From Corticibacter populi (GTDB lineage Bacteria > Pseudomonadota > Gammaproteobacteria > Burkholderiales > Burkholderiaceae_C), in assembly GCF_004217315.1 (NCBI RefSeq), contig NZ_SGWR01000001.1:1302001-1366000 (forward strand): a DNA stretch of 64,000 nt, written 5' to 3'. A program made the position numbers and the translations under genes. The notes under the pieces are model-generated. The model did not search any database. It worked only from the letters and a program-made list of their open reading frames with translations, and was not told where the DNA came from. Positions 21,040-35,439 of the stretch are shown here, piece by piece (the stretch's first letter is position 1; each line of letters opens with the position of its first letter).

Positions 21040-22290
21040 TCATTCCTTTTCATAGGCAAGGTAGTTGCGATGCACGGCAATGTGGTCCGCAATGTACTTG
21101 GCATCGTGCCAGCCGCCCCAGATGAAGGAAGAGGAACGGTTCGTCAGATCCGGCAGGCCCAGGAAGTAAATGCCCGTCTCGGACGAAATGCCGCGCTTGT
21201 GCAGCGGCGCGCCATTGGCATCGAAGGCATTGACGTCCAGCCAGCTGAAGTCGAACCGGAAACCGGTCGCCCAGATGATGGTTTTGATGCCGGCCTTGGC
21301 CAGATCCAGGCTGAGAATCGGATTCGTCAGGCATTCGGGGTCTTCCGGGATCTTCCAGGCCTCGGGCTCGGCGGGCAGGTCAACCCCATTGCGCTCGATG
21401 TAGGCATCCGCCTCGCGCAGGACTTCGAAGTAGTCCTCGTCGCCTTGCGCGATGTTGCGCTGCAGATCGTTCTCGAACTCGATCACGCCATTGTCATAGG
21501 CCTTGGTCACGCCCAGCAGGGTGATGCCGGTATGGGCGAGCCGGCGGAAATCCATGGTCTTGCCGCCGTCGAAACCGCTCACGGCAAAGGCGACATGCTT
21601 CTTCTTGGGCTTGGTGTTCACCTCGTCCCACATGCCCAGCACGCCCAGCCACCACACATAGTCGCGCTGGCGGTAGGAACGCGGCGGGCGATAGTGCTCG
21701 CCGACCGACAGGTAGACCGTCCGGCCCGCCTTGCGCAACTCCTCGGCGATCTGCGATCCGGACGAGCCGCCGCCAACCACCAGCACCGCACCATCGGGCA
21801 GTTGCGCCGGATTCTTGTAGGCCGACGAGTGGATCTGCTCGATGCCGCTGTCCTCGGGAACGATCTTCGGGAAGCTCGGCACCTGGAACGGCCCGGTCGC
21901 AGCCACCACGTGCATGGCCTCGATCACGCCCTCCGAGGTGGTCACCGTGAAGCCGGAGCGGTTGTCGTTGTGCCGGACATGCCTGACCTCGACGCCGGTG
22001 CGAACCGGTGCGGCGATCATCTTCGCATAGTCCTCGAAATACTGGGCCATGCGCTCCTTGGGCGGAAAGGCTTCGGGGCTGACATCATCGAACTTCAGGT
22101 TCGGAAAGCGGTCGTGCCAGGCCGGTCCGTTGGCAACCAGTGAATCCCAGCGCTCGGAGCGCCAGCGCTCGGCGATGCGCTTGCGTTCCAGCACGATGTG
22201 CGGGATGCCCATTTTTCCGAGGTGCTCGCTCATCGCGACACCGGCTTGACCAGCACCGACGACCAACGTATCGATTTTTTCAACTGACAT
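21040..22290 (-). CDS. Flavin-containing monooxygenase (CzcO-like FAD/NAD(P) oxidoreductase)
   Basis: A 416-residue soluble flavoprotein expected to use NADPH and O2 to oxygenate a nitrogen or sulfur centre, or a ketone. The N-terminal FAD fold is DTLVVGAGQAGVAMSEHL. A second Rossmann motif, AVLVVGGGSSGSQIAEEL near residue 170, binds NADPH. The intervening segment EQIHSSAYKNP carries the conserved His region of FMO/BVMO-like enzymes, and IIWATGFRFD is the FMO ATG motif. The substrate is unknown. It directly borders the uptake and catabolism cluster (22.8-35.4 kb), so a role in oxidising that compound is plausible but inferred. A strong terminator follows it. Confidence 0.88.
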   Translation of the reverse strand: MSVEKIDTLVVGAGQAGVAMSEHLGKMGIPHIVLERKRIAERWRSERWDSLVANGPAWHDRFPNLKFDDVSPEAFPPKERMAQYFEDYAKMIAAPVRTGVEVRHVRHNDNRSGFTVTTSEGVIEAMHVVAATGPFQVPSFPKIVPEDSGIEQIHSSAYKNPAQLPDGAVLVVGGGSSGSQIAEELRKAGRTVYLSVGEHYRPPRSYRQRDYVWWLGVLGMWDEVNTKPKKKHVAFAVSGFDGGKTMDFRRLAHTGITLLGVTKAYDNGVIEFENDLQRNIAQGDEDYFEVLREADAYIERNGVDLPAEPEAWKIPEDPECLTNPILSLDLAKAGIKTIIWATGFRFDFSWLDVNAFDANGAPLHKRGISSETGIYFLGLPDLTNRSSSFIWGGWHDAKYIADHIAVHRNYLAYEKE

Positions 22291-22820
22291 CTTTATTTCC
22301 TACATAGAGAGAATCCAAACCGGCTCTTTTCCAACCCCGGCACGCCCAGGTGCCGGCAACGAGCTTCCCAAGCGCATGCACCCCGTGAACGGGTTCTTAG
22401 AACCTGTTCATAGAAAACATCGTGCATGCATGGGATGCCAGTGTGCGCAAACTCGCTGCGCTTGAGAACTTCGATTTTTGGACGCTGGGCTTAGGAAAAA
22501 GCAAACGGCTGCCGTTGCGCCGCATGGCCTCGCCGCAAGCCGCATTGCATACGGCGCACACCTCCGAGAACCTGTTCACCATCGTCTCGCGGACCACGTT
22601 GCCTCGTCGAGCGATGCGATACAAGGATTCCGTTTTTCCGATGAGTGGCATCAATATCCACAAAGCCTTGCCAGCCGGCTTTTGCCGTATTCTTTGACGC
22701 AGTCGCACGCCGCATGGACCGAGCCATGCATGCCCGGGGCGCGAGGCGTCCGCAAGCCGATGTCTGCCCATATGTGCCCTGCCATGTCTCCGAGGCGAGG
22801 CCGTTCGCAACAGTGAAACC
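22291..22820. repeat. Gene-free 530-bp region with two degenerate interspersed-repeat copies
   Basis: No supported gene. TTAGAACCTGTTCATAG at about 22396 matches the repeat terminus. From 22564, GAGAACCTGTTCACCATCGT and then CCACGTTGCC...GCGATGCGATACAAGG align base-for-base with the left end of the 45.5-kb element. The region separates the monooxygenase gene from the divergent ABC ATPase gene, so both promoters should lie here. Confidence 0.65.
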
Positions 22821-23972
22821 ATGAATCCAGTTGAACCATCAGCCCCTCTGCGGGGCAGCCCCTTGTCCCAGGAATCCCCCATCGCCGTCAGTCTCGAGGG
22901 CGTGGTCAAGAAGTACCGCGACCAGACGGTGCTGCAGGACATCTCCCTGAAGATCCAGCGCGGCGAGTTCCTCACACTGCTCGGGCCTTCGGGCTGCGGC
23001 AAGACCACCCTGCTCAACCTCATTGCGGGCTTTGCGCAGGCCGACACCGGCGAGATCTTCATCGACGGCCAACTGGTCACCGACCTGCCGCCCCACGAAC
23101 GCCACATCGGCATCGTGTTCCAGAACTACGCGCTGTTTCCGCACATGAACGTCGAGCGCAACATCGGCTACGGACTGCGCATGCGCGGTGTGCCGGCCAG
23201 CCAGATCGCACAGCGCGTCAAGGACGCCATGGCGCTGGTCAAGCTCGACGGCCTGGGTCAGCGCAAGCCGCGCGAGCTCTCGGGTGGCCAGCAACAGCGC
23301 GTGGCCCTGGCACGCGCCCTGGTCATCGAGCCCAAGGTCCTGCTGCTCGACGAGCCCTTCTCCGCACTGGACAAGAGCCTGCGCGGCTCCATGCAGGTCG
23401 AGATCCGCGAGATCCAGCGCAAGCTGGGCGTGACCACGGTCTTCGTGACCCACGACCAGGGCGAGGCACTGAGCATGTCGGACCGGATCGCGGTCATGTC
23501 GCGCGGGCGCATCTGCCAGATCTCGACGCCCGATGCCATCTACCGCCACCCGGAAGATCCCTTCGTGGCATCGTTCCTCGGCGATGTGAACATCCTGCCG
23601 GCGCACTTTCACGGCGAGGATGCAGGCCGCATCTACCTGCGCCTGGGCGCGGGCCTGGTCAGCATCGAGCGCGAGCGGCTGATCGGCGGCGGGCACGACG
23701 GCGGACGGCTGGACATCTATGTGCGTCCGGAGCACCTGCGGCTCGAGCCCCTGCATGCGGACTCGGTGCTGACCGGCACGGTGGTGCACCATGTCTTCCA
23801 GGGCGACCATGTCGATACCTACGTAGATGTGGACATTGCCGTGCAGGGTCACCAGCGCGTGATGGTGCGCTCACCCGGCCTGGGTGTGATGGAGCAATGG
23901 CCCGTGGGCACGGTGACAGCGCTGGGCATGCCGCCGAGCGGCATGAGCGTCTTTCCCCCGAAGCCCGCATAA
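22821..23972 (+). CDS. ABC transporter ATP-binding protein, polyamine/opine/iron (PotA-like) class
   Basis: A 383-residue ATPase of the CUT1-like PotA/FbpC class. It has Walker [11 protein letters not shown]-loop FQNYALFPHM, signature LSGGQQQRV, Walker B LLLDEPFSALD and switch FVTHDQGEAL. A C-terminal TOBE domain (residues ~285-380) includes YVRPEHLRLE. No permease gene adjoins it; the only unpartnered permeases in the window are the PotB/PotC-like pair and binding protein at 27.4-30.3 kb on the other strand. They lack their own ATPase, so this is probably their motor. Substrate unknown. Confidence 0.9.
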   Translation: MNPVEPSAPLRGSPLSQESPIAVSLEGVVKKYRDQTVLQDISLKIQRGEFLTLLGPSGCGKTTLLNLIAGFAQADTGEIFIDGQLVTDLPPHERHIGIVFQNYALFPHMNVERNIGYGLRMRGVPASQIAQRVKDAMALVKLDGLGQRKPRELSGGQQQRVALARALVIEPKVLLLDEPFSALDKSLRGSMQVEIREIQRKLGVTTVFVTHDQGEALSMSDRIAVMSRGRICQISTPDAIYRHPEDPFVASFLGDVNILPAHFHGEDAGRIYLRLGAGLVSIERERLIGGGHDGGRLDIYVRPEHLRLEPLHADSVLTGTVVHHVFQGDHVDTYVDVDIAVQGHQRVMVRSPGLGVMEQWPVGTVTALGMPPSGMSVFPPKPA

Positions 23973-24055
23973 CCCGCCCCGCCTGCGACGGCGCGACGGC
24001 GCCTTTGCCCCTCTGAAAGCTGCGCCAGCTTCATTGGCCACGGAAACCGATTCCC

Positions 24056-25084
24056 ATGACAACGCCCTCCTCCATGCAAGCGATCATCGCCAGCCAGCCC
24101 GGCGGCCCTGAAGTCCTCTCCCTGGCCGAGCGCCCCATCCCGGAGCCCGGGCCCGGCGAAGTGTTGCTGCGAGTGCGTGCCGCAGGCGTCAACCGTCCGG
24201 ACATCATGCAGCGCCAGGGCCTGGCCAAGCCCGCAGCGGGCGTGACCGACGTGCTCGGCCTCGAAGTCTGCGGCGAGGTCGCCGCCTGCGGGCCCGGCTT
24301 GCCGCCACAGGCTCCGGGCCTGGAGCCTGGCGCACGCGTGATGGCCCTGCTGCCCGGCGGCGGCTACGCCCCGTGGTGCATCGCGCGCGTCGAGCACTGC
24401 CTGCCGGTGCCTCCGCAGTTGGGTGACGCCGAGGCGGCAGCGCTGCCGGAAGGGCTTTTCACCGTCTGGCACAACCTCTTCGAACTCGGTGCGCTGAAGA
24501 TGGGCGAGGCGGTGCTCATCCACGGCGCGGCGGGCGGCATTGGCACCCTCGCCATCCGCATGGCCTGCGCCGCCGGCGCGCGCGTCATCGCCACCGCCGG
24601 CCGCAAGGAACGGCTCGTGGCGCTGCGCGAGATGGGCGCGCTGGAGGCGATCTGCTACCGCGACACCGATTTCGTGGCTGCCTGCCGCTCCCTCACGGAG
24701 GGCCGGGGTGTGGATGTGGTGCTGGACGTGGTCGGCGGCGACTACGTGCGGCGCAATCTCGATGCGCTGGCCTTCGGCGGGCGGCACCTGAGCCTGTCCT
24801 TCCTGCAGGGCTCCCAGGTGTCCATCGAGCTGCTGACACTGATGCAGAAACAGCTGAGCCTGCACGCCTCGACCATGCGGCCCCAGCCGGACAGCGAGAA
24901 GGCGCGCATGGCCCGGGCGATCGCGTGCCATGTGCTGCCCCTGGTGGCCGACGGCAAGGTGCGCCCGCGCCTGCATGCGGCCCTGCCACTGGCCCAGGCA
25001 GCCGAGGCCCATCGCCTGCTCGAAAGTGGCGAAGTCTTCGGCAAACTCGTGCTGCTGCCCGAACAAGCCGGACGCCCGACCTAG
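24056..25084 (+). CDS. NAD(P)H quinone oxidoreductase, PIG3-type zinc-independent MDR
   Basis: A 342-residue medium-chain reductase that transfers hydride from NADPH to quinones or enones. The N-terminal GroES-like part has GEVLLRVRAAGVNRPDIMQR, typical of the quinone oxidoreductase and PIG3 branch. The NADPH motif is HGAAGGIGTLAIRMA. No catalytic-zinc Cys/His set is present. It lies 83 bases after the ABC ATPase and 37 bases before the GST gene, all in one direction, so co-transcription is likely. Confidence 0.9.
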   Translation: MTTPSSMQAIIASQPGGPEVLSLAERPIPEPGPGEVLLRVRAAGVNRPDIMQRQGLAKPAAGVTDVLGLEVCGEVAACGPGLPPQAPGLEPGARVMALLPGGGYAPWCIARVEHCLPVPPQLGDAEAAALPEGLFTVWHNLFELGALKMGEAVLIHGAAGGIGTLAIRMACAAGARVIATAGRKERLVALREMGALEAICYRDTDFVAACRSLTEGRGVDVVLDVVGGDYVRRNLDALAFGGRHLSLSFLQGSQVSIELLTLMQKQLSLHASTMRPQPDSEKARMARAIACHVLPLVADGKVRPRLHAALPLAQAAEAHRLLESGEVFGKLVLLPEQAGRPT

Positions 25085-25121
25085 CTCCATACTCGCTTTT
25101 ATCATCCACACCGCTGTGACC

Positions 25122-25742
25122 ATGCTGCAACTGCTCTACGCCCCCACCTCCCCCTACGTGCGCAAGGTCATGGCCAGCGCCCACTTGCTGGGCCTGACCG
25201 GGCGCATCCGGCTGCTCGATAGCGCCGCCAATCCGATCCACCGCGACGCGCGCATCGCGGCGCACAACCCCATGGCCAAGGTGCCGACCATGGTTCTGGC
25301 CGATGGCCAGGCGCTGTACGACAGCCGAGTGATCTGCGAGTACCTCGACAGCCTGGTGCCCGAGGCCGGCCTGTTCCCCAAGGATGGGGCGCAGCGCTGG
25401 CAGGCGCTGACACGCCAGGCACTGGGCGACGGCCTGCTCGATGCCGCGCTGCTGGCCCGCTATGAGTTCACGGCACGCCCAGAGGCACAGCAATCGGCCG
25501 CCTGGCGCGACGCCCAACTGGGCAAGGTCCAAGCCTGCCTCGACGCCATCGAACACCAGGCCGCCGAGCTGTCGGTGCAAGCCCCCACCATTGGCGAGAT
25601 CACGCTCGGCTGCGCCCTCGGCTACCTGGATTTCCGCTTTTCCTCGCTCGACTGGCGCACCACGCACCCCAAAGCCGTGCATTGGCACGCCCAGTTGCAG
25701 GCCCTGCCCGCCATGCAGGCCACCATTCCTCACGAAGCCTGA
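25122..25742 (+). CDS. Glutathione S-transferase family protein
   Basis: A 206-residue cytosolic GST. The thioredoxin-like N-terminal domain starts LQLLYAPTSPYVRKVMASAH, where the Ser in SPYVRK is the likely glutathione-activating residue. MAKVPTMVL carries the cis-proline and LYDSRVICEYLD the gamma-glutamyl site (Glu/Asp-Ser motif). The helical C-terminal domain begins near residue 85. The start at 25122 is at the usual family position; the open frame before it lies within the reductase gene. It is part of the 22.8-27.3 kb plus-strand run. Confidence 0.9.
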   Translation: MLQLLYAPTSPYVRKVMASAHLLGLTGRIRLLDSAANPIHRDARIAAHNPMAKVPTMVLADGQALYDSRVICEYLDSLVPEAGLFPKDGAQRWQALTRQALGDGLLDAALLARYEFTARPEAQQSAAWRDAQLGKVQACLDAIEHQAAELSVQAPTIGEITLGCALGYLDFRFSSLDWRTTHPKAVHWHAQLQALPAMQATIPHEA

Positions 25743-25755
25743 TCCATCTCTTACC

Positions 25756-26220
25756 ATGACCGGTACCACATCCTCCTCCGCCGCGCGGACCATCTGGTTC
25801 CTCAACGGCCCCAATGCAAATCTCTACGGGCTCGATGCCAACCAGGTCTACGGGCAGGAGAGTTTCCCCACCTTGCAGGCACGCTGCGAAGCCAAGGCCG
25901 CAGCCCTTGGGCTGGAACTGCGCTTCGAGCAGTCGAACTGGGAAGGCCAGCTCGTGGACTGGATCCAGCAGGCACGCGGCACGGTCAGCGGCATCATCAT
26001 CAATGCGGCCGGACTGACCTACAGCTCGGTGCCCATCCTCGATGCGTTGCAGTCCTTCCCCGGCAAGATCATCGAGGTGCACATGAGCAATATCTGGCGC
26101 CGCGAGAGCTTTCGCCATCACTCGTACATTTCCAAGGCGGCGGATGGTGTCATCGCCGGCCTCGGCGGCGACGGCTACGAGCTGGCCATCGAGGCCATCG
26201 CTCGGCTGATCCGCAACTGA
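25756..26220 (+). CDS. Type II 3-dehydroquinase-like protein with altered active site
   Basis: 154 residues with the AroQ (type II dehydroquinate dehydratase) fold: NGPNANLYG, VYG, INAAGLTYSSVPILDAL, EVHMSN and FRHHSYIS. Compared with M. tuberculosis AroQ, the lid Arg19 aligns with Asp in GLDANQVYG and the catalytic His81 (LTHTS) aligns with Tyr in LTYSS. Tyr24, Asn75, His101 and Arg112 are kept. A working shikimate-pathway enzyme normally needs Arg19 and His81, so this is probably a paralogue with a different reaction or a binding role. It sits 13 bases after the GST gene, within the putative catabolic run. A canonical aroQ would be expected elsewhere in the genome. Confidence 0.85.
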   Translation: MTGTTSSSAARTIWFLNGPNANLYGLDANQVYGQESFPTLQARCEAKAAALGLELRFEQSNWEGQLVDWIQQARGTVSGIIINAAGLTYSSVPILDALQSFPGKIIEVHMSNIWRRESFRHHSYISKAADGVIAGLGGDGYELAIEAIARLIRN

Positions 26221-26323
26221 TGCGCGGCTGGTAACCTATTGCGGTGCGCACCGCACAACCGCCATGGCCGCCAGCCCGCGCTGCCTGCCATACCGACCGT
26301 CTCCCCTCCCTCCCCGCTTGCCG

Positions 26324-27283
26324 ATGACCACTTCCGCCACCGCCACGCCCACGGGCGCGCTCGTCTTCTACAGCGAGTTCGACGACTTCGATACCTGGAA
26401 GCGCGCCTTGCAGGCCCAGCTGCCCGAATTGCAGGTGCTGCACTGGCGCGAGGTGACCGACCCGGAGGCCATCCACCATGCCCTGGTGTGGAAGCCGCCC
26501 GAAGGCTTCTTCAAGACCATGACGCAACTGCGGCTGATCATCAACCTCGGCGCCGGCGTGGACTCGCTGGTGGCGCGCAACGACCTGCCGCTCGGCGTGC
26601 CGATCACCCGCATCACCGATCCGCAGATGGCGCGCATGATGGCCGGCTACGTGCTCTTTGCCACGCTGCGACATGCTCGTGACATCCCGTTCTTCGAGCA
26701 GGCGCAGCGGCGCGGCGAATGGGCATACCGCCACCCGCGCAACCCCGAGGACATCCGCGTGGCCGTGCTCGGCCTGGGCGAGTTGGGCGCGCGGGCGGCC
26801 AGCGAACTGCAGCGCCAGGGCCTGACGGTGCTGGGCTGGTCGCGCAGTCCCCGGCACATCGAGGGCGTGCAATGCCATGCGGGGCTGGACACGCTCGATG
26901 GAGTGCTCTCGCAGGCCGACATCGTGGTGATCATGCTGCCGCTGACGGCGCAGACCCGCGGCCTGCTCGGCCGCGAGCGGCTCGCGCGCCTGCCCCATGG
27001 CGCCGCGCTCATCAACGTGGCCCGCGGCGCGCTGGTCGACCAAGCCGCGATGACGGAACTGCTGCAAAGCGGCCACATTGGCGCGGCCACGCTCGACGTG
27101 TTCGAGCATGAGCCGCTGCCGGCCGATGATCCACTCTGGCACATGGAGAACGTGCTCATCACCCCGCACCTGGCCTCGGTGGCCATTCCCGCATCGGCCG
27201 CCCGGCAGATCGCAGACAACATCCTGCGCATCGTTCGCGGCGAGACGCCGGCCAACCGGATCGACCCTTCGCTAGGCTATTGA
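26324..27283 (+). CDS. D-2-hydroxyacid dehydrogenase, glyoxylate/hydroxypyruvate reductase A-like
   Basis: A 319-residue NAD(P)H-dependent reductase of 2-oxo acids, GhrA-like. The nucleotide motif is VLGLGELGARAASELQ. The catalytic triad is visible as Arg in NVARGALVDQ, Glu in LDVFEHEPLP and His in ITPHLAS. The segment LIINLGAGVDSL is typical of the family. Start ATG at 26324 is chosen because similarity begins at GALVFYSEFDDFDTWK; an upstream in-frame ATG at 26264 adds a nonconserved Pro-rich leader. Last gene of the plus-strand run that starts with the ABC ATPase. It may reduce a 2-oxo acid product of that pathway. Confidence 0.91.
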   Translation: MTTSATATPTGALVFYSEFDDFDTWKRALQAQLPELQVLHWREVTDPEAIHHALVWKPPEGFFKTMTQLRLIINLGAGVDSLVARNDLPLGVPITRITDPQMARMMAGYVLFATLRHARDIPFFEQAQRRGEWAYRHPRNPEDIRVAVLGLGELGARAASELQRQGLTVLGWSRSPRHIEGVQCHAGLDTLDGVLSQADIVVIMLPLTAQTRGLLGRERLARLPHGAALINVARGALVDQAAMTELLQSGHIGAATLDVFEHEPLPADDPLWHMENVLITPHLASVAIPASAARQIADNILRIVRGETPANRIDPSLGY

Positions 27284-27292
27284 TCGTCTTGT

Positions 27293-27420
27293 TGAGAACC
27301 TGTCTGTGCGCCTTTCCCGGGAATCCCGGAAGGCTGCAAATCTCCAATACAGCGCAATGCAACGGGCGGCGCTGCCCATTGCATTTCTGACCTCCTGCGC
27401 GCGCCCCACGAAAGATGGTG
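27293..27420. repeat. Degenerate copy of the interspersed inverted-repeat family
   Basis: GAGAACCTGTCTGTGCG at the left and CTGCCCATTGCATTTCTGAC plus CTCCTGCGCG at the right align with the two ends of the element at 45518-45757. The internal GCGCAATGCAA also matches. About 130 bases, with diverged terminal repeats, between the convergent dehydrogenase and permease genes. Confidence 0.65.
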
Positions 27421-27439
27421 GTCTGCCGCTCCTGCCCCG

Positions 27440-28261
27440 TCAGCGGCTCTCTTCGATATTGAGCACCTTGCCCAGCCCCAGGAAGTAGTTGGCAAAGGCC
27501 AGCAGGCTGGCCGTGACGGCGATGTAGACGACCGAGAGGGCTGCCAGCGTCGGATCGGCGAACTCGCGCACATAGTTGTACATCGACACCGGCAGCGTCT
27601 GCGTGCGCTGCGTGGTGATGAAGAGCGAGGCCGTGAACTCGTTGAACGACATGATGGCAGCGAACAGCCAGCCGCCGAAGAGGCCCGGCGCGAGCAAGGG
27701 CACCGTGACGGTGAACAGCACCTTCAGCGGCGACGCCCCCAGGCTGGCGGCGGCCTGCTCCAGCCGTTCATCGAGGTTTTCCATCGAGACGTAGACGCTG
27801 CGCATCACGAATGGCAGCACCAGCATCACATGGCACAGGATCACGATGGCATAGCCACGCTGCACCTTGAACTGCGCCGCCAGGATCAAGAGTCCCAGGC
27901 CTAGCGTGAAGTGAGGAATCACCAGCGGCGAGAGCAGAATGGCCTGCAGGGTGGCCTTGCCGTGGAACTCCAGCCGCTTGACGGCGATGGCCAGGCAGGT
28001 GCCGATCACCAGTGCCAGCAAAGAAGCCCAGGCGGTGACGATCATGCTCGCGCGGAACCCATGCTGGAAATCGGGGTACGTGAAGACCCGGCCGAACCAC
28101 CGCCAGGACCAGGTTTCGGGCGGGAAGGCCAGCAGCGCCTTGTCATTGAAGGCCGCAACGGTGACCACGAACACCGGCAGCAGCACGAAGCCGAGGATGA
28201 GGCAGACCAGCACCGGGCCGGCCACGCGCAGTGGCAGCGGCAGGGAATGTCGAATGTTCAT
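27440..28261 (-). CDS. ABC transporter permease, PotC-like
   Basis: A 273-residue inner-membrane permease with six predicted helices. The first is PVLVCLILGFVLLPVFVVTVAAF, and the coupling loop is EQAAASLGASPLKVLFTVTVPLLAPGL. The length and the FNDFTASLFI-like segment (FNEFTASLFITTQ) place it in the PotC branch of polyamine/opine-type importers. It starts 1 base after the PotB-like gene. Substrate unknown. Confidence 0.92.
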   Translation of the reverse strand: MNIRHSLPLPLRVAGPVLVCLILGFVLLPVFVVTVAAFNDKALLAFPPETWSWRWFGRVFTYPDFQHGFRASMIVTAWASLLALVIGTCLAIAVKRLEFHGKATLQAILLSPLVIPHFTLGLGLLILAAQFKVQRGYAIVILCHVMLVLPFVMRSVYVSMENLDERLEQAAASLGASPLKVLFTVTVPLLAPGLFGGWLFAAIMSFNEFTASLFITTQRTQTLPVSMYNYVREFADPTLAALSVVYIAVTASLLAFANYFLGLGKVLNIEESR

Positions 28262-28262
28262 G

Positions 28263-29117
28263 TCAATGGCCTCCGGCCTTCTTGAGCTTGCGCGTCAACC
28301 CGCTGAGCACCATCAGCGCCACCACCGTCAGCGCCAGTCCCACGATGCTCAGGCTGGCCGCCAGGGGGAAATTCATCGAAGAGAAACCGAGCTGGTAGAC
28401 CAGCGTGGAGACGGTGGGCACGCGCCCGCCACCGATCATCTGCGGCGTGGCAAAGGCGCTGAAAGTCCATGCGAAGGCGGTGGTCGCGCTCGCCAGAATG
28501 CCGGGCATGGACAGCGGCAGCGTGACCGTCAGGAACGTGCGGATCGGCCCGGCCCCCAGGCTCTGGGCGGCCTTCTCATAATCTCGGTTGATGTGGGATA
28601 TGGCCGTGGCCAGCATGAGCACGACCACCGGGATCGTCACATGCACCAACGCCACCAGCACCCCCAGGTGCGTGAACATCAGCTCCAGCGGCCACTCGAT
28701 GATGCCCAGCTTGCGCAGCACGGTATTGAGGAAACCGTTGCTGCCCAGCACGATGATCCACGAATACGTGCGCACGATCTCGCCCAGGAAAAGCGGCGTG
28801 ATCGAGGCGATCAGGATGAAGGACTTGAGAACGCGGTTGCGCACGCGCACCAGCGCATAGGCCAGCGGGTAGGCCACCAGCAGGGAGAAGACCATGGTCT
28901 CCACACTCAACCGCAGCGTGTTCCAGAACGCCTGCAGATAGATGGGCTTGTCCAGGCCGGTGAAATTGGCCAGCGTCAGTCCGCCCACGTCCAGCGAGCC
29001 CGGGACATAGGCCCGCAGGCTGAACTGGAACACGGCGACCAGCGCCACGCAGATGCACAGCGCGACCATGGCTGCCGGCGAAACCAGCCATGCCTTCAAC
29101 CGGGAATGGGTGCTCAT
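28263..29117 (-). CDS. ABC transporter permease, PotB-like
   Basis: A 284-residue membrane permease. The first helix (SPAAMVALCICVALVAVFQFSL) and coupling loop EKAAQSLGAGPIRTFLTVTLPLSMPG fit the PotB branch. Start MSTHSRLKAW at 29117 was chosen; the open frame further upstream to 29216 is a low-complexity leader. It is followed almost immediately by the PotC-like gene and preceded by the binding-protein gene with about 124 bases between. Confidence 0.92.
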   Translation of the reverse strand: MSTHSRLKAWLVSPAAMVALCICVALVAVFQFSLRAYVPGSLDVGGLTLANFTGLDKPIYLQAFWNTLRLSVETMVFSLLVAYPLAYALVRVRNRVLKSFILIASITPLFLGEIVRTYSWIIVLGSNGFLNTVLRKLGIIEWPLELMFTHLGVLVALVHVTIPVVVLMLATAISHINRDYEKAAQSLGAGPIRTFLTVTLPLSMPGILASATTAFAWTFSAFATPQMIGGGRVPTVSTLVYQLGFSSMNFPLAASLSIVGLALTVVALMVLSGLTRKLKKAGGH

Positions 29118-29241
29118 GGTTCGATCGATCTTCCGTTTGCTTCGTTCTTCTTCGCGAATTCCCGCGCTCCTGCCGCAGCAGCTATGGCAGCTGCGGCAGG
29201 AGCGCGGTAGCGGCAAGGTGCGCCGGGCGCCGTCAGCCCAG

Positions 29242-30267
29242 TCAGTTCATGATGTTCTCGGTGAACCACTTGCGCCATTCGGCGGTCTTCTCGGCGCGCA
29301 GCTTGTCGTCGATGACGATCGCCTGGGTATCCCACTGCTCCTTGGTGGTGAACACGCCAGGCAGGGCGGCGTCCTCGGCGGAGACCGTCGCATTGTTCAC
29401 CACGGGGCTGGCTTTCTTGTAGGCCACGATCTTGGACTGCACCTCCGGCGAGAGCGCAATGTCCATGAACTTGTAGGCCAGCTCCGCTTTGCTGGTGCCC
29501 TTCATGATGCCCATGGTGTCCACGCCCAGCACGGCGCCTTCCTTGGGCATGACCACCTTGATGGGCACGCCCTGCCCGATCATGTGATAGGCATTCATCG
29601 ACAGCAGGATCTGCACCGGCGTCTCGCCAGTGGCGATGAGCTGCTGACTGTTGGCATCGTTGGTGTAGAACGCCTTGAAGTTGGGCTTGAGTGCTTTTAG
29701 CTTGTCCTCGCCCTTCTCCCAGCTGCTGGCGTCTCCGCCGGAGAGCAGCGCGGCCACGTTGATGATGTGGCTCGGATCAAAGTCTGGCGCGGCGATCTTG
29801 CCCTTGAGTTGCGGATTCCACAGATCCTCCCAGCTGCCGAACGTGATGCTCGGAGGCACCAGGTCGGGCCGGTAGCCGATGGTGTACACATAAGCCCAGC
29901 TGCCGATGTGGTAAGGGCTGATCTTGGCACGGTCGACCAGATTCGCGTAGTTGGGCAGCTTGCTGGTATCGAGCTCCTCGAACAGCCCGCCATCGACGTA
30001 AAGCCAGCCGATGTGCGAGGTGGTGAAGGTGATGTCGCTCTCGGGCGCGGTGGCCAGCTTGGCCTTGTTGAGGCGATCGATCGTGCCGCCGGTGATGTAG
30101 GTGACCGGCACCCCCGTCTGGCGGGTGAATTCCTTGCCGATGTTTTCATCGATCAGGTCCCTGAAGCTGCCGCCCCAGGTGCTGACCACCAGTGCCTCCT
30201 GGGCCCACGCCACGCTGGCCATCATCGCGCCGGACAGAATGCCGACCGTCATGAGTTTCCGAATCAT
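29242..30267 (-). CDS. Periplasmic binding protein of the PotD-like ABC importer
   Basis: A 341-residue extracellular solute-binding protein. The signal peptide is MIRKLMTVGILSGAMMASVAWA, cleaved before QEALVVSTWGG. PotD/opine-binding motifs follow: STWGGSFRDLIDENIGKEFT, KAKLATAPESDITF and NAYHMIGQGVPIKVVMPKEG. The ATG at 30267 has AAAGGG 8-10 bases upstream; the longer frame to 30549 is intergenic. It heads the minus-strand transport unit (binding protein, PotB, PotC) and is divergent from the RidA-like gene. A ligand cannot be deduced from sequence. Confidence 0.92.
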   Translation of the reverse strand: MIRKLMTVGILSGAMMASVAWAQEALVVSTWGGSFRDLIDENIGKEFTRQTGVPVTYITGGTIDRLNKAKLATAPESDITFTTSHIGWLYVDGGLFEELDTSKLPNYANLVDRAKISPYHIGSWAYVYTIGYRPDLVPPSITFGSWEDLWNPQLKGKIAAPDFDPSHIINVAALLSGGDASSWEKGEDKLKALKPNFKAFYTNDANSQQLIATGETPVQILLSMNAYHMIGQGVPIKVVMPKEGAVLGVDTMGIMKGTSKAELAYKFMDIALSPEVQSKIVAYKKASPVVNNATVSAEDAALPGVFTTKEQWDTQAIVIDDKLRAEKTAEWRKWFTENIMN

Positions 30268-30743
30268 TGAGTATCCCTTTCGGTTGATTGAAGCGCCACC
30301 GCACCGGTGCGCGAAACGAACGATTTCGCCATACGAGAAAGCATAAATCCTGCCAAATTCGCCCCTAGGCTCCGGACTCCGGGTGCTGCCCGGGCTCTTC
30401 CCCGGCGCCTCTGGCTGAACCTGGGCAAATGATGAAAGAGCTGTGGCGCAGGGCCAAGTCGCCTTTTCCGTAGGCATGGCTCGCTTTTCCTGACCGGCCC
30501 GCACCGGAGGGGGAAGCCGGAGCCGCGCGGCGCCACCGCAGCCTTGCACGCGCCACTGTCGGAAATTCCGAAACAGGCCACCGGAAAATACAAATAGGCA
30601 TGGCTACCGGTTGGGCCGACCATGGGGGCCGTTGCATCCCGGTGGGCTGGCAACGGCGCGGCGCAAGCCCCCAGCCATGGCCCGGCCATCGCACCAGCAG
30701 CCCACCAGTGCAGGCCAGACGAATCCACTCCCTCCAGGCGACC
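30268..30743. other. Divergent promoter region, binding protein / RidA-like
   Basis: 476 bases with no supported gene. It separates the divergent binding-protein and RidA-like genes, so promoters of both, and possibly the binding site of the LysR regulator at 33.2 kb, should be here. A GC-rich stem around 30380-30402 (GGTGCTGCCCGGGC...) was noticed, without a T-run. Confidence 0.5.
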
Positions 30744-31157
30744 ATGAAACACACCCGCATTCGCACCTTCAACACCAAGGCCACCTATCCCGAGCAGAAC
30801 CTTGACAACGACCTGTGCCAGGCCGTCGTCGCACGCGGACGCACCGTGTTCCTGCGCGGGCAGATCGGCCAGAACCTCGACACATCCGAAAGCGTGTGCA
30901 TTGGCGACGCGGCCGGCCAGGCCGAGCAGGCCATGGCCAACATCGCCATGCTGCTCAAGGAAGCCGGTGGCGAACTCGAGGACATCTGCAAGATCACCAT
31001 CTACATCATCGATCCGCGCTATCGCGAGGCGGTCTACCGTGTGGCCGGGCGCTGGCTCAAGGGCGTGTTTCCGGTCTCCACCGGCATCGTGGTCTCGGCC
31101 CTGGCCCGCCCCGAATGGCTGGTGGAAATCGACGCCACCGCCGTCATCCCCGACTGA
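30744..31157 (+). CDS. RidA/YjgF-family protein lacking the canonical arginine
   Basis: A 137-residue YjgF/RidA fold protein: YPEQNLDNDLCQAVVARGRTVFLRGQ, EQAMANIAMLLKEAGGELED, YIIDPRYREAVYRV and LVEIDATAVIPD. Archetypal RidA hydrolyses enamine and imine intermediates using Arg105 in a P-A-R-S/T motif. Here the corresponding motif is FPVSTGIVV, so Ser or Thr stands where Arg is expected. That places it in the Rid4-7-like groups whose reaction is not generally known. It is followed after 23 bases by the DUF1028 gene, an association that suggests a shared catabolic step. Confidence 0.9.
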   Translation: MKHTRIRTFNTKATYPEQNLDNDLCQAVVARGRTVFLRGQIGQNLDTSESVCIGDAAGQAEQAMANIAMLLKEAGGELEDICKITIYIIDPRYREAVYRVAGRWLKGVFPVSTGIVVSALARPEWLVEIDATAVIPD

Positions 31158-31180
31158 CGCCAGCACAAGGCACTGAGCGT

Positions 31181-31852
31181 ATGACCTTCTCCATCATCGC
31201 GCGCTGCCCGGCCTCCGGCCAGTTCGGCGCCGCCGTGGCATCTTCCTCGCCCGCCGTCGCGTCGCGCTGCATCCGCGCCCGCCAGGGCATTGGCGCGGCA
31301 GTGAGCCAGAACATCACCGACCCGCGCCTGGGCCCGCTGATCCTCGAGCGGCTCTCCGCCGGGCGCACACCCGTGCAGGCCCTCGAGGAACTGCAGCAGC
31401 GCCCGTTCATCGCCTATCGCCAGCTCATGGCCATCGACGCCTCCCATCCGCCAGCCGTCTTCACCGGCGCGCGCGCGCTGGGCACGCTCTCCAGCGCCAC
31501 GGGCGAGCATGCGGCGTGCGCTGGCAATATGCTCGCTTCCCGGGAGGTGCCGGCGATCATGCTGGCAACCTTCGAGCACGCACAGGGCTGCCTGGCCGAG
31601 CGCCTGATGCAGGCCATGCTGGCTGGCCAGGCTGCCGGCGGCGAGGAAGGCCCGGTGCACTCTGCCGGGCTGCTCGTCTATGCCGAACTGGACTGGCCCG
31701 TCGTCGACCTGCGCCTCGACTGGGTCGACGACAGCCCGGTCCAGGCGCTCTACACAGCCTGGAAGATCTATGAACCCCAGGTGCAGGACTACATCGCCCG
31801 CGCACGCGATCCACGCGCCGCACCCAGCTTTGGCGTTCCCGGCGACCTCTGA
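31181..31852 (+). CDS. DUF1028 protein, putative Ntn-type amidohydrolase
   Basis: A 223-residue DUF1028 protein. Family features are MTFSIIARCPASGQFGAAVAS, AVSQNITDPRLGPLILERLSAG, AACAGNMLASREVPAIM, QAMLAGQAAGGEEGPVHSAGLLVY and VDLRLDWVDDSPV. The residue after Met1 is Thr2; once Met is removed it could be the nucleophile of an N-terminal-nucleophile hydrolase, the fold class I associate with this family. No reaction is established here. It follows the RidA-like gene closely and lies next to an M20 deacylase gene, now separated by the IS110 insertion. Confidence 0.88.
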   Translation: MTFSIIARCPASGQFGAAVASSSPAVASRCIRARQGIGAAVSQNITDPRLGPLILERLSAGRTPVQALEELQQRPFIAYRQLMAIDASHPPAVFTGARALGTLSSATGEHAACAGNMLASREVPAIMLATFEHAQGCLAERLMQAMLAGQAAGGEEGPVHSAGLLVYAELDWPVVDLRLDWVDDSPVQALYTAWKIYEPQVQDYIARARDPRAAPSFGVPGDL

Positions 31853-31868
31853 GTAACCGTCTTAAAGG

Positions 31869-33010
<1,142 letters not shown>

Positions 33011-33013
33011 GTT

Positions 33014-33225
33014 AAAGATACAAGAACCTGCCTGGCCGGCATGACCTTGCATCACCATCAGGGCGCGCCCCCCCATCGCGGGCAGCGCAGCCCCTGTCCT
33101 GACATGGTGGATACACTGCAGGCTCACCGCTTCGCGCACGTCCGAGTATCACCGGCGGCACCGCCCGCCCACGGCAGTCCTCGTGCGCAAAGCGACTTTG
33201 CGCTGCACCTTTTTCCTTCGCTGCC
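33014..33225. other. Upstream region of the LysR gene
   Basis: About 210 bases between the IS110 edge and the LysR-type regulator. No gene seen. The insertion separates this regulator from the genes it probably controls. Confidence 0.4.
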
Positions 33226-34203
33226 ATGCTCAACCGCATCTCCCTGCGCCAAATGGAATATTTCGTGGCCACTGCCCAACACGGCAGCATTGCCACGGCC
33301 TCTGCGCAAATCCACATCTCCTCGCCTTCGATCTCGGCTGCCATTGCGCACATGGAAGCGGAACTGGGTGTGCAACTGTTCGTGCGGCATCCTTCCAAGG
33401 GGCTGGCCCTGACGGCCATTGGCACGCGGGTCATGCAGGAATGCCAGGACCTGCTCGAGCGCGCCTCCGGGCTGTACGACATCGCCTCGAATTCGAACGA
33501 CAGCATCCAGGGCACGCTGCGCGTGGGCTGCTTCCAGTCGCTGACGGCCATGATCGCGCCGGAAGTCATCTTCGGCTTTGCCCGCGCGTTCGGCAAGGTG
33601 GAGCTGCACATGGTCGAGGGCGACCAGCAGGAGCTCATGAACAAGCTGCGCACGATCGAGATCGACGTCGCCCTCACCTACGACCTGCAACTGGGCGAAG
33701 ACATCCGCTTCGAGACCCTGGCCCATCTGCCTCCGCACGTGCTGGTCAGCGAGTTGCACCCCATGGCCCAGCAACCGGCCGTCACGTTCGAGGAGCTGGC
33801 CCCGCAGCCCATGGTGCTGCTGGACCTGCCCATGAGCAGAGACTATTTCACCTCGCTTTTCGCCAAGGCCGGCGTCGAGCCCCATATCGTGGCCCGCTCC
33901 CGCTCGGAGGACGTGGTCCGCTCCATGGTGGCCAATGGCATTGGCTACGCCCTTTTCAACGTGCGGCCCCGCTCCAACCAGTCACTCGACGGCAAGCGCT
34001 TCGTGCGGCTGCGCCTGGCCGGCACGCCCCGCCCCATGCTGCTGGGTCTCGCAACCTACAAGCCCATGGCGCACTCGCGCCTGACCCAGGTGTTCATGCA
34101 GCGCTGCCGGGCGTACATCTCCGACCAGTACATCCCCGGCATGAGCGCGCCGAGCTTCTTCGACCCGCACATTGCCAGCACGGTGGACACCGATGCGCCA
34201 TGA
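33226..34203 (+). CDS. LysR-family transcriptional regulator
   Basis: A 325-residue LysR regulator. The N-terminal winged helix has ISLRQMEYFVATAQHGSIATASAQIHIS and SISAAIAHMEAELGVQLFVR. The effector domain begins about residue 90 (GTLRVGCFQSLTAMIAPEVI). The helix-turn-helix fits the class well. Downstream by 48 bases is the M20 deacylase gene. It most likely controls the flanking catabolic and transport genes, but the effector is unknown. Confidence 0.93.
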   Translation: MLNRISLRQMEYFVATAQHGSIATASAQIHISSPSISAAIAHMEAELGVQLFVRHPSKGLALTAIGTRVMQECQDLLERASGLYDIASNSNDSIQGTLRVGCFQSLTAMIAPEVIFGFARAFGKVELHMVEGDQQELMNKLRTIEIDVALTYDLQLGEDIRFETLAHLPPHVLVSELHPMAQQPAVTFEELAPQPMVLLDLPMSRDYFTSLFAKAGVEPHIVARSRSEDVVRSMVANGIGYALFNVRPRSNQSLDGKRFVRLRLAGTPRPMLLGLATYKPMAHSRLTQVFMQRCRAYISDQYIPGMSAPSFFDPHIASTVDTDAP

Positions 34204-34251
34204 CCAGCCCCTGCCACGGGCAGCATTGCACCGGCAAGCCGCCATTTCCCC

Positions 34252-35439
34252 ATGCCCATCGCCATGACCAGCCCATCTCCATCGGGCAGCCTTGAGCTGC
34301 TGCGCGAACTCATCGCCTTTCCCTCGGTCTCCCTCGCTCCCAATGCAGACCTGATGGCCCGTGTGCAAGAGTTGCTGAGCCAGGCCGGCATTACCGCAAC
34401 CCTGATTGCCGACCCAGAAGACGCCACGCGTTGCAATCTCTTTGCCAGCATCGGCCCGCAGGAAGTGCCCGGCGTGATGCTCTCGGGCCACACCGACGTC
34501 GTCCCCGTCCAAGGCCAGGCCTGGACCGTCCCGCCGTTCGAAGCCACCGGGAGCGACGGCCGCATCTACGGCCGCGGCAGCTCGGACATGAAAGGCTTTG
34601 TCGCCTGCGCGGTCAGGGCCATGATCCGTGCTGCCCACGCGCCGCTCAAGCGGCCCCTGCAACTGGCCCTGTCCTTCGACGAGGAAATCGGCTGCGTGGG
34701 CGTGCGCCACCTGCTGCGCGCGCTAGAAGGCACACTGCCCGCGCCCATGCTGTGCCTGGTGGGCGAACCCACCCTCATGAAAATCGGCACCGGCCACAAG
34801 GGCAAGTCCGCGTATCGCGCGCTGTGCCGCGGTCAGGCAGGCCACTCCGGCCTTGCGCCACACTTCGTCAATGCCATCCATACCGCTGCCGATCTGGTGG
34901 CGGCCATGCGCGACGTTCAGCAGGAGCTGGCCGAACACGGCCTGCGCGAGGCGGGCTACGAGATACCCTACTCCACCGTGCATGTCGGCACCATCAACGG
35001 CGGCAAGGCGCTCAACATCGTCCCCGGCGAATGCGAGGTGAACTTCGAGATCCGCTCCCTCGCGCAGGACGATCCGGCACGCATTCTCGCGCGCCTGCTT
35101 GCCCGCACCGAGGCGCGCATGCGCGACGCCAAGGCCTTGCCCGATGCAGCGCCACCCGAAGTGCAACTCGTCAACGCCTATCCCGGCCTCTCCACCGCCG
35201 AGGACTCCCCGGCGGTGCGCCTGCTGGCCTCGCTGTTGCCGCAAGGAACCAGCCGCACCAAGGTCGCTTTCGGTACCGAGGGCGGCCTGTTCCGGCAATG
35301 CTGGAACCAGACCCCCGTGCTGGTCTGCGGGCCCGGCAACATCGAGGTGGCGCACAAGGCCGATGAGTATGTGGAAGTGAGCCAGATCGCCGCCTGCGAC
35401 CAGATGCTCGCCCGGCTGACGGATCACCTCTGCGCGTGA
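34252..35439 (+). CDS. M20 deacylase, acetylornithine deacetylase (ArgE)-like
   Basis: A 395-residue dinuclear-zinc amidohydrolase. The zinc and catalytic residues are visible: His in SGHTDVVPV, Asp in GRGSSDMKG, the catalytic Glu pair in SFDEEIGC, Glu in CLVGEPT and His in NIEVAHKADEYVE. The dimerisation lid holds GHSGLAPHFVNAIHTAADLV. It is assigned as N-acyl amino acid deacylase of the ArgE type, but arginine synthesis is not indicated by its context. It follows a LysR regulator and lies near RidA-like, DUF1028 and ABC transport genes, so a catabolic deacylase is more likely. Confidence 0.91.
   Translation: MPIAMTSPSPSGSLELLRELIAFPSVSLAPNADLMARVQELLSQAGITATLIADPEDATRCNLFASIGPQEVPGVMLSGHTDVVPVQGQAWTVPPFEATGSDGRIYGRGSSDMKGFVACAVRAMIRAAHAPLKRPLQLALSFDEEIGCVGVRHLLRALEGTLPAPMLCLVGEPTLMKIGTGHKGKSAYRALCRGQAGHSGLAPHFVNAIHTAADLVAAMRDVQQELAEHGLREAGYEIPYSTVHVGTINGGKALNIVPGECEVNFEIRSLAQDDPARILARLLARTEARMRDAKALPDAAPPEVQLVNAYPGLSTAEDSPAVRLLASLLPQGTSRTKVAFGTEGGLFRQCWNQTPVLVCGPGNIEVAHKADEYVEVSQIAACDQMLARLTDHLCA

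Follow-up and report, generated by a model that had tools for sequence, protein, structure and literature searches.

A recurring importer-linked gene module in Corticibacter populi, probably a variant of the hin-type imidazole pathway

The closest described relative of the locus considered here is hin, the histamine and imidazole-4-acetate pathway of Pseudomonas putida U and P. aeruginosa. According to a review (PMC8231116), hinFLHG converts imidazole-4-acetate to aspartate under the regulator HinK, and a second paper (PMC6467879) lists HinF as an FAD-monooxygenase (EC 1.14.13.5), HinL as an enamine deaminase, HinH as an amidase, HinG as an amidase of EC 3.5.1.8 and HinI as aspartate ammonia-lyase. 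A 64-kb stretch of the Corticibacter populi genome (contig NZ_SGWR01000001.1, positions 1,302,001 to 1,366,000), called the window below, carries the same enzyme families in the same order, namely a flavin monooxygenase (FMO), a RidA-family protein, a DUF1028 protein and an M20 amidohydrolase, along with a HinK-like LysR regulator. To these the window adds a PotABCD-type importer, a quinone oxidoreductase (QOR), a glutathione S-transferase (GST), an AroQ-like protein and a 2-hydroxyacid dehydrogenase, and its FMO falls in a clade separate from the FMOs of the Pseudomonadaceae loci that run FMO-RidA-DUF1028-M20. The locus probably encodes a variant form of this imidazole pathway, one that has an importer and a first enzyme of its own and includes an AroQ-like enzyme with altered residues.

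FMO, RidA and DUF1028 genes also stand together, as they do here, in a putative histamine cluster of Brevibacterium (PMC6467879) and in an Arthrobacter plasmid locus (L093; L numbers denote loci, G numbers genomes). The Arthrobacter locus has genes for Cu amine oxidase, aldehyde dehydrogenase and aspartate ammonia-lyase, which are largely missing from the module loci described below.

Conservation and distribution of the module

Gene calls and family-profile scans (Pfam, TIGR and NF models) were made in and around the locus. A first-pass annotation, drawn from the DNA alone, had proposed a single uptake-and-catabolism locus with a PotABCD-type importer, which would be a chance cluster if its genes occurred independently in related genomes and were not co-regulated. 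All twelve genes that it named are present at or near where it put them, and the loci that recur in other genomes bear out a unit conserved together with the importer. It had left the FMO outside the finding, as a neighbour; the gene is there, as a core member of the conserved module. Thirteen genes make up this module: FMO, PotA, QOR, GST, AroQ-like, 2-hydroxyacid dehydrogenase, PotC, PotB, binding protein, RidA, DUF1028, LysR and M20.

A scan of genome contigs with the RidA protein confirmed at least 572 relatives, and the best 80 loci (74-96% identical) were kept, many of them ending at contig edges or at 10 kb. These 80 span Alpha-, Beta- and Gammaproteobacteria and Actinomycetota and, with identity limits applied, pair RidA with DUF1028 in 63 cases, M20 in 45, FMO in 43, LysR in 40 and the AroQ-like gene in 18. 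All 18 loci with the AroQ-like gene also carry the binding protein, both permeases and the 2-hydroxyacid dehydrogenase, and the remaining 62 have no AroQ-like, QOR, GST, permease or 2-hydroxyacid dehydrogenase gene of the module type; the binding protein occurs in one of them, on a short contig (L021).

Over all the loci fetched there are 32 module loci, near-duplicates included (L044/L132, L094/L117, L096/L121 and two from Cupriavidus, L011/L091). The complete 13-gene set is found in 16 of them: 11 from Burkholderiales, a Cupriavidus plasmid (L091), Klebsiella plasmid pUUH239.2, and plasmids of Pantoea, Rhizobium and Roseivivax. Gene order varies among lineages, on chromosomes and plasmids of several classes. 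The Methylobacterium loci have no QOR within the stretch, and some are also without GST and M20 there. A further module locus, L145 from the Pseudomonadaceae genome G351 (it contains the short locus L102), has 11 of the 13 genes, with M20 and FMO not found within its stretch, and is excluded from every count.

The AroQ-like protein gives an independent view of the same association. A search of 398 Pseudomonadota genomes at E<=1e-46 finds 11 places, which are spread over 10 genomes counting the own one. All six places at >=59% identity adjoin a 2-hydroxyacid dehydrogenase gene and have importer genes nearby; five also have RidA and DUF1028, and the stretch of the sixth (L135) stops at QOR. None of the five places at 52-56% identity has module neighbours, unrelated ABC ATPases apart. 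The genes therefore do not occur independently, given these six places and the 16 loci in which all 13 recur.

The module is patchily distributed, and the counts speak against wide vertical conservation: any DUF1028 match is found in 7 of 60 genomes of a relatives set (own included, one marginal), RidA of this type in 15 of 300 genomes of the order (own included), and AroQ of this type, at E<=1e-55, in one of those 300, which is the own genome. Such patchiness would suit a chance cluster of unrelated genes. The probability of that explanation is close to nil; it is refuted, in our view, by the recurrence of the same 13 genes, differently arranged, in chromosomes and plasmids from several classes, and by a shared promoter element.

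Among plasmid records the binding protein matches 134, of which 103 are from Klebsiella; the AroQ-like protein matches 102 Klebsiella records and RidA 105, and the complete 13-gene set was checked on one Klebsiella plasmid, pUUH239.2. This conjugative plasmid (L117 8782-22089) carries the whole module under generic annotation names only, plus an alpha-hydroxy acid oxidase gene. In Aminobacter (L121 15945-18138), HutD, FAD-synthetase-like and HbpS-like proteins are encoded inside the module, and genes for aspartate ammonia-lyase and asparaginase lie nearby.

RidA itself is unusually conserved, at 77-82% identity to the listed actinobacteria, far above its partner proteins. The subfamily is also found in a second type of locus with an agmatinase-type ureohydrolase, in 17 of 34 RidA loci without FMO or module (L036, L038, L039, L041, L042, L046, L048, L054-L057, L068, L076, L085, L088, L092, L095), three of which have an M20 gene (L068, L092, L095). 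For an amidine step, the ureohydrolase may take the place of the non-homologous DUF1028.

Relation to the hin enzymes

The hin-type quartet of FAD monooxygenase, RidA, DUF1028 and M20 is, by family, encoded together in the module. RidA of this type is present in 28 of 79 Pseudomonadaceae genomes, and in all eight of the larger stretches taken from these 28 the genes run FMO-RidA-DUF1028-M20, matching F-L-H-G; another of the 28, G351, carries the importer module instead. By family and gene order, the four window proteins are thus the putative counterparts of HinF, HinL, HinH and HinG. The LysR regulator has as its best solved match 6m5f, titled HinK (E 1.5e-58; the next other regulator is at 7.7e-24), with 3fzv also among the best matches. 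Superposition of the LysR model on the solved matches is poor (root-mean-square deviation 15-24), and the HinK link rests mainly on sequence.

The DUF1028 fold comparison has 2imh at the top (E 4e-19), followed by proteasome/HslV chains at E 2e-4 to 9e-4 and TM-scores of 0.42-0.54, in agreement with the Ntn-hydrolase fold that the first-pass annotation had associated with this family. The M20 protein scores above cut-off against NF005710 and TIGR01892, the ArgE-type profiles for acetylornithine deacetylase. This profile does not fix the substrate, since the probable counterpart HinG is listed as EC 3.5.1.8.

Read in this way, the enzyme families suggest a chemistry in which oxygenation would come first, with DUF1028, RidA and M20 acting on the opened ring. 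The PotABCD-type importer would take up the substrate, and the FMO would hydroxylate the ring carbon adjoining a nitrogen to give a cyclic lactam. Opening of this lactam by the DUF1028 Ntn-type hydrolase would yield an N-formimino amino acid, whose C=NH group would be hydrolysed by RidA; deformylation by the M20 enzyme would finally release formate and a free amino acid.

The chemistry proposed in the first-pass annotation was another one: import of an acylated or amidated amine, its deacylation by the M20 enzyme, oxidation to an imine and a 2-oxo acid, and reduction. In favour of this route, M20, RidA, a 2-hydroxyacid dehydrogenase and a polyamine-type importer are all present. The closest characterised counterparts of the core, HinF, HinL, HinH and HinG, nevertheless act on imidazole-4-acetate and its products, and none of the 13 conserved genes encodes an amine oxidase or aminotransferase. 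This correspondence, with the HinK-like LysR, makes ring hydroxylation, lactam opening, imine hydrolysis and deformylation the likelier course, and leaves the acyl-amine route very improbable.

Phylogeny separates the first enzyme from the rest of the quartet. A careful FMO tree of 63 rows unites the 24 module rows, among them the window and L021 (labelled by hand), in a single clade (100/100; stem 0.59) from which the 39 non-module rows are excluded. Quick trees were made for RidA (104 rows over few columns), DUF1028 (85 rows, long branches) and M20 (66 rows), and in these the module label must change 12, 8 and 6 times, respectively, of which starred branches force 3, 3 and 5; these three proteins are inseparable from those of hin-type cassettes, whereas the FMO is separable. 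The DUF1028 proteins of Klebsiella and Pantoea group (99*) with Pseudomonadaceae hin-type rows. It looks as though the importer, FMO and AroQ-like genes travel together and the RidA, DUF1028 and M20 genes are swapped with hin-type clusters as an exchangeable cassette, and an exchange of this kind suggests the same chemistry in module and hin.

The FMO is present in 22 of the 32 module loci. In six others (L013, L015, L019, L025, L028, L094) the stretch ends ahead of the position that the FMO has in relatives. The remaining four (L096, L121, L133, L136) lack an FMO within the stretch and have a gene for an HpaB-type monooxygenase, which in L096, L121 and L133 adjoins a flavin reductase gene. 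HpaB-type enzymes also hydroxylate pyrrole-2-carboxylate, and these four loci would fit a pathway for another five-membered N-heterocycle, such as a pyrrole or a methylated imidazole acid, that follows the same hydroxylation, lactam and imine logic. Such a substrate is improbable: the exchangeable M20 protein, a HinG-like deformylase, and the HinK-like regulator indicate imidazole, and HpaB also occurs in 8 of the 34 RidA loci without FMO or module.

Importer, AroQ-like protein and candidate substrate

The window importer has the subunit make-up of the polyamine importers PotABCD and PotFGHI and belongs to the same sequence family. Unlike PotD and PotF, its binding protein does not reach the equivalog profiles of polyamine importers, falling far below the model cut-offs (72.2 bits vs 582 for PotD, 50.2 vs 636 for PotF). 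The ATPase gene is split from the permease genes in the window and lies after them in L119, L120 and L132.

The AroQ-like protein shares its family and most of its active-site residues with type II 3-dehydroquinase (AroQ). It matches PF01220 at E 7.1e-49 and scores above cut-off against NF003805-NF003807, and its 152.4 bits against TIGR01088 are below the cut-off of 169.85. Where it differs is at two positions, seen in an alignment of 33 module rows (30 distinct) with six canonical ones (five from the search of 398 genomes and one solved chain). The arginine of the catalytic loop, which is essential for dehydroquinases, is aspartate in 33/33 module rows and arginine in 6/6 canonical rows; the histidine of the HTS motif is likewise tyrosine in 33/33 and histidine in 6/6. 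The tyrosine, the asparagine, the second histidine and the second arginine are retained in every row aligned. A separate AroQ with the canonical residues is encoded in the own genome. The protein had already been called divergent in the first-pass annotation, a view that both replacements confirm. Its subfamily, annotated as "type II 3-dehydroquinate dehydratase", is probably misnamed in genome annotation.

Accessory genes were surveyed in stretches of up to about 28 kb, in three groups: 32 module loci, 40 FMO loci without a module call (including L021) and the 34 RidA loci with neither. The module loci include 13 with an LldD-type oxidase, nine with an AMDase/EutA-like protein, four with HpaB, two with aldehyde dehydrogenase (40 and 35% identity) and none with Cu amine oxidase. 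Among the 40 FMO loci, LldD and AMDase-like genes are absent, HpaB is found in two, aldehyde dehydrogenase in 22 (16 at >=46% identity), Cu amine oxidase in seven (all actinobacteria) and aspartate ammonia-lyase in seven. The 34 RidA loci have neither LldD nor AMDase-like genes; eight have HpaB and 17 the ureohydrolase. An amine- or aldehyde-oxidising front end is thus not found near the module (Cu amine oxidase 0/32, aldehyde dehydrogenase 2/32; a HinC-type aminotransferase was not searched for). In the window itself there is no match to LldD, AMDase-like, HpaB, aldehyde dehydrogenase, Cu amine oxidase or aspartate ammonia-lyase genes, which distinguishes it from hin in the last three; HinA and HinC were not searched for.

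Histamine as the direct substrate was rejected, the genome having no Cu amine oxidase match and the module loci few genes of amine or aldehyde oxidation. A search of the genome for aspartate ammonia-lyase gave a best match of 488.5 bits against a cut-off of 681.2, which may be fumarase.

The module has 2-hydroxyacid enzymes where hin-type loci have amine and aldehyde oxidation, which points to a side chain with a 2-hydroxy or 2-oxo acid. The 2-hydroxyacid dehydrogenase, with the AroQ-like protein, QOR and GST, would handle this side chain, which histamine lacks, and would be helped elsewhere by either an oxidase of the LldD type or an AMDase/EutA-like protein, as encoded in other genomes. On balance we lean towards a locus whose hin-type cassette breaks open the imidazole-type ring of a small imported compound, one apparently derived from histidine and different from both histamine and plain imidazole-4-acetate.

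Several observations weigh against this interpretation. Identity to HinK is only 36-37%, and the proteins of the Pseudomonadaceae loci are 49-52% (DUF1028) and 44-47% (M20) identical to those of the window; judged by names and gene order, DUF1028 is a putative HinH and these loci are putative hinFLHG clusters. The AroQ-like protein, GST and QOR have no place in hin chemistry and are only loosely placed. HpaB lies alongside an FMO in two of the 40 FMO loci (L008, L059) and is thus not always a stand-in for it, and aspartate ammonia-lyase is found in only two of the 32 module loci, both from Aminobacter. The accessory contrast is biased, the LldD and AMDase queries coming from module loci and the Cu amine oxidase and aldehyde dehydrogenase queries from the hin-like Arthrobacter plasmid, and its counts take in query loci, near-duplicates and truncated loci. 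The window is itself without an LldD or AMDase-like gene; a link to the best LldD relative of the genome (69% identity) was rejected, the 20 kb around it holding neither module neighbours nor the promoter element.

The locus could also be an ordinary imidazole-4-acetate pathway, with an FMO that is a diverged HinF acting on the same substrate and extra genes that serve only uptake or side reactions. RidA, DUF1028 and M20 are interchangeable with hin cassettes, the regulator is HinK-like, and imidazole-4-acetate, once imported, needs neither amine nor aldehyde oxidase. This is unlikely, if well worth considering: the FMO forms a separate, long-stem clade that tracks the importer and AroQ-like genes, the constant pair of AroQ-like protein and 2-hydroxyacid dehydrogenase would be useless in that pathway, and LldD and AMDase-like matches are confined to module loci among the three groups surveyed.

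For the favoured imidazole-type import, the best guess at a substrate is an imidazole 2-hydroxyacid such as imidazole-lactate, the simplest candidate. That the side chain is a 2-hydroxyacid as such is put forward tentatively, with the balance somewhat against it. Rather doubtful is the full picture of an undescribed second imidazole pathway, which would import an imidazole 2-hydroxyacid, use an FMO diverged from HinF, re-purpose a dehydroquinase (Asp for Arg) for the side chain, borrow the hin cassette and be carried on plasmids, conjugative Klebsiella plasmids among them.

Gene content, promoter element and significance

The features of the locus are collected in Table 1. The IS110 transposase gene, overlooked in the first-pass annotation, belongs to a stretch for which the scoring of 40 of 157 candidates gave a single full-length match in the own genome; no IS110 was found at the corresponding loci L009 and L012. 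In this strain the insertion may uncouple LysR-M20 from the RidA-DUF1028 transcript.

Table 1. Features of the Corticibacter populi locus, in window coordinates.
Feature	Position	Strand	Basis
Flavin monooxygenase (FMO), HinF-like, probable ring hydroxylase	21040..22290	-	Family scans; Pseudomonadaceae loci and Hin table; module-specific clade 100/100 in FMO tree
Operator-like element GGAAAAAGCAAA, FMO/PotA divergent promoter	22494..22505	+	One of 2 exact GGAAAAWRCRAA matches in 64 kb; conserved in related loci
Importer ATPase, PotA-type	22821..23972	+	TIGR01187 above cut-off; gene follows permease genes in L119, L120, L132
NAD(P)H:quinone oxidoreductase (QOR), PIG3 family	24056..25084	+	TIGR02824 above cut-off
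Glutathione S-transferase (GST)	25122..25742	+	Pfam GST_N/GST_C
AroQ-like protein, distinct subfamily (loop Arg to Asp, His to Tyr)	25756..26220	+	PF01220; residue alignment
D-2-hydroxyacid dehydrogenase, GhrA-like	26324..27283	+	Family scans; solved relatives 4xa8/5vg6, E 6.7e-117 and 6.8e-117
Importer permease, PotC-type	27440..28261	-	Family scan
Importer permease, PotB-type	28263..29117	-	Family scan
Periplasmic binding protein, PotD/PotF superfamily	29242..30267	-	Family scan
Operator-like element GGAAAATACAAA, binding protein/RidA divergent promoter	30583..30594	+	Second of 2 exact GGAAAAWRCRAA matches
RidA-family protein, HinL-like, probable imine/enamine hydrolase	30744..31157	+	Family scan; relatives; Pseudomonadaceae loci and Hin table
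DUF1028 protein, HinH-like by gene order, probable lactam/amide hydrolase	31181..31852	+	Family scan; Ntn-type fold by structure comparison
IS110 transposase gene, insertion between DUF1028 and LysR, outside pathway	31869..32948	-	NF033542 above cut-off
LysR regulator, HinK-like	33226..34203	+	Best solved match 6m5f (HinK), 36-37% identity
M20 amidohydrolase, HinG-like, probable N-formyl amino acid deformylase	34252..35439	+	Profile name ArgE

The FMO/PotA and binding protein/RidA promoters were compared in the window and 11 loci, several of them close relatives. A shared word has on average 2.75 mismatches in 15 positions in the second promoter, compared with 4.17-4.58 for the best word in three shuffles. 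The pattern GGAAAAWRCRAA has two exact matches in the 64 kb, one in each divergent promoter, where 0.02 would be expected, an expectation that is not independent because the pattern was derived from these promoters. Outside the derivation set, exact matches lie upstream of RidA in L013, L015, L025, L028 and L021, and near the FMO start in L053, L060, L021 and L091. There is none in L019, L044, L132 or L133-L136, nor in the enterobacterial, Rhizobium, Roseivivax or Aminobacter loci, and loci without the module have a single one, in L113. By this distribution, the element belongs to the loci from Burkholderiales and to part of those from Methylobacterium, and is not general to the module. Co-regulation, on which the first-pass annotation had made its case depend, receives only an indirect answer from this element: its presence in both divergent promoters suggests that the locus is probably co-regulated, and the HinK-like LysR regulator may control both.

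The collection of papers searched has none that contains the name DUF1028, none on DUF1028 together with RidA and none matching the gene set of the Klebsiella plasmid; for imidazole-lactate and imidazole-4-acetate, titles and the opening lines of abstracts revealed none on bacterial genes. The locus offers DUF1028 a testable role, and it makes a catabolic operon probable on many Klebsiella plasmids, with a substrate that can now be guessed at.

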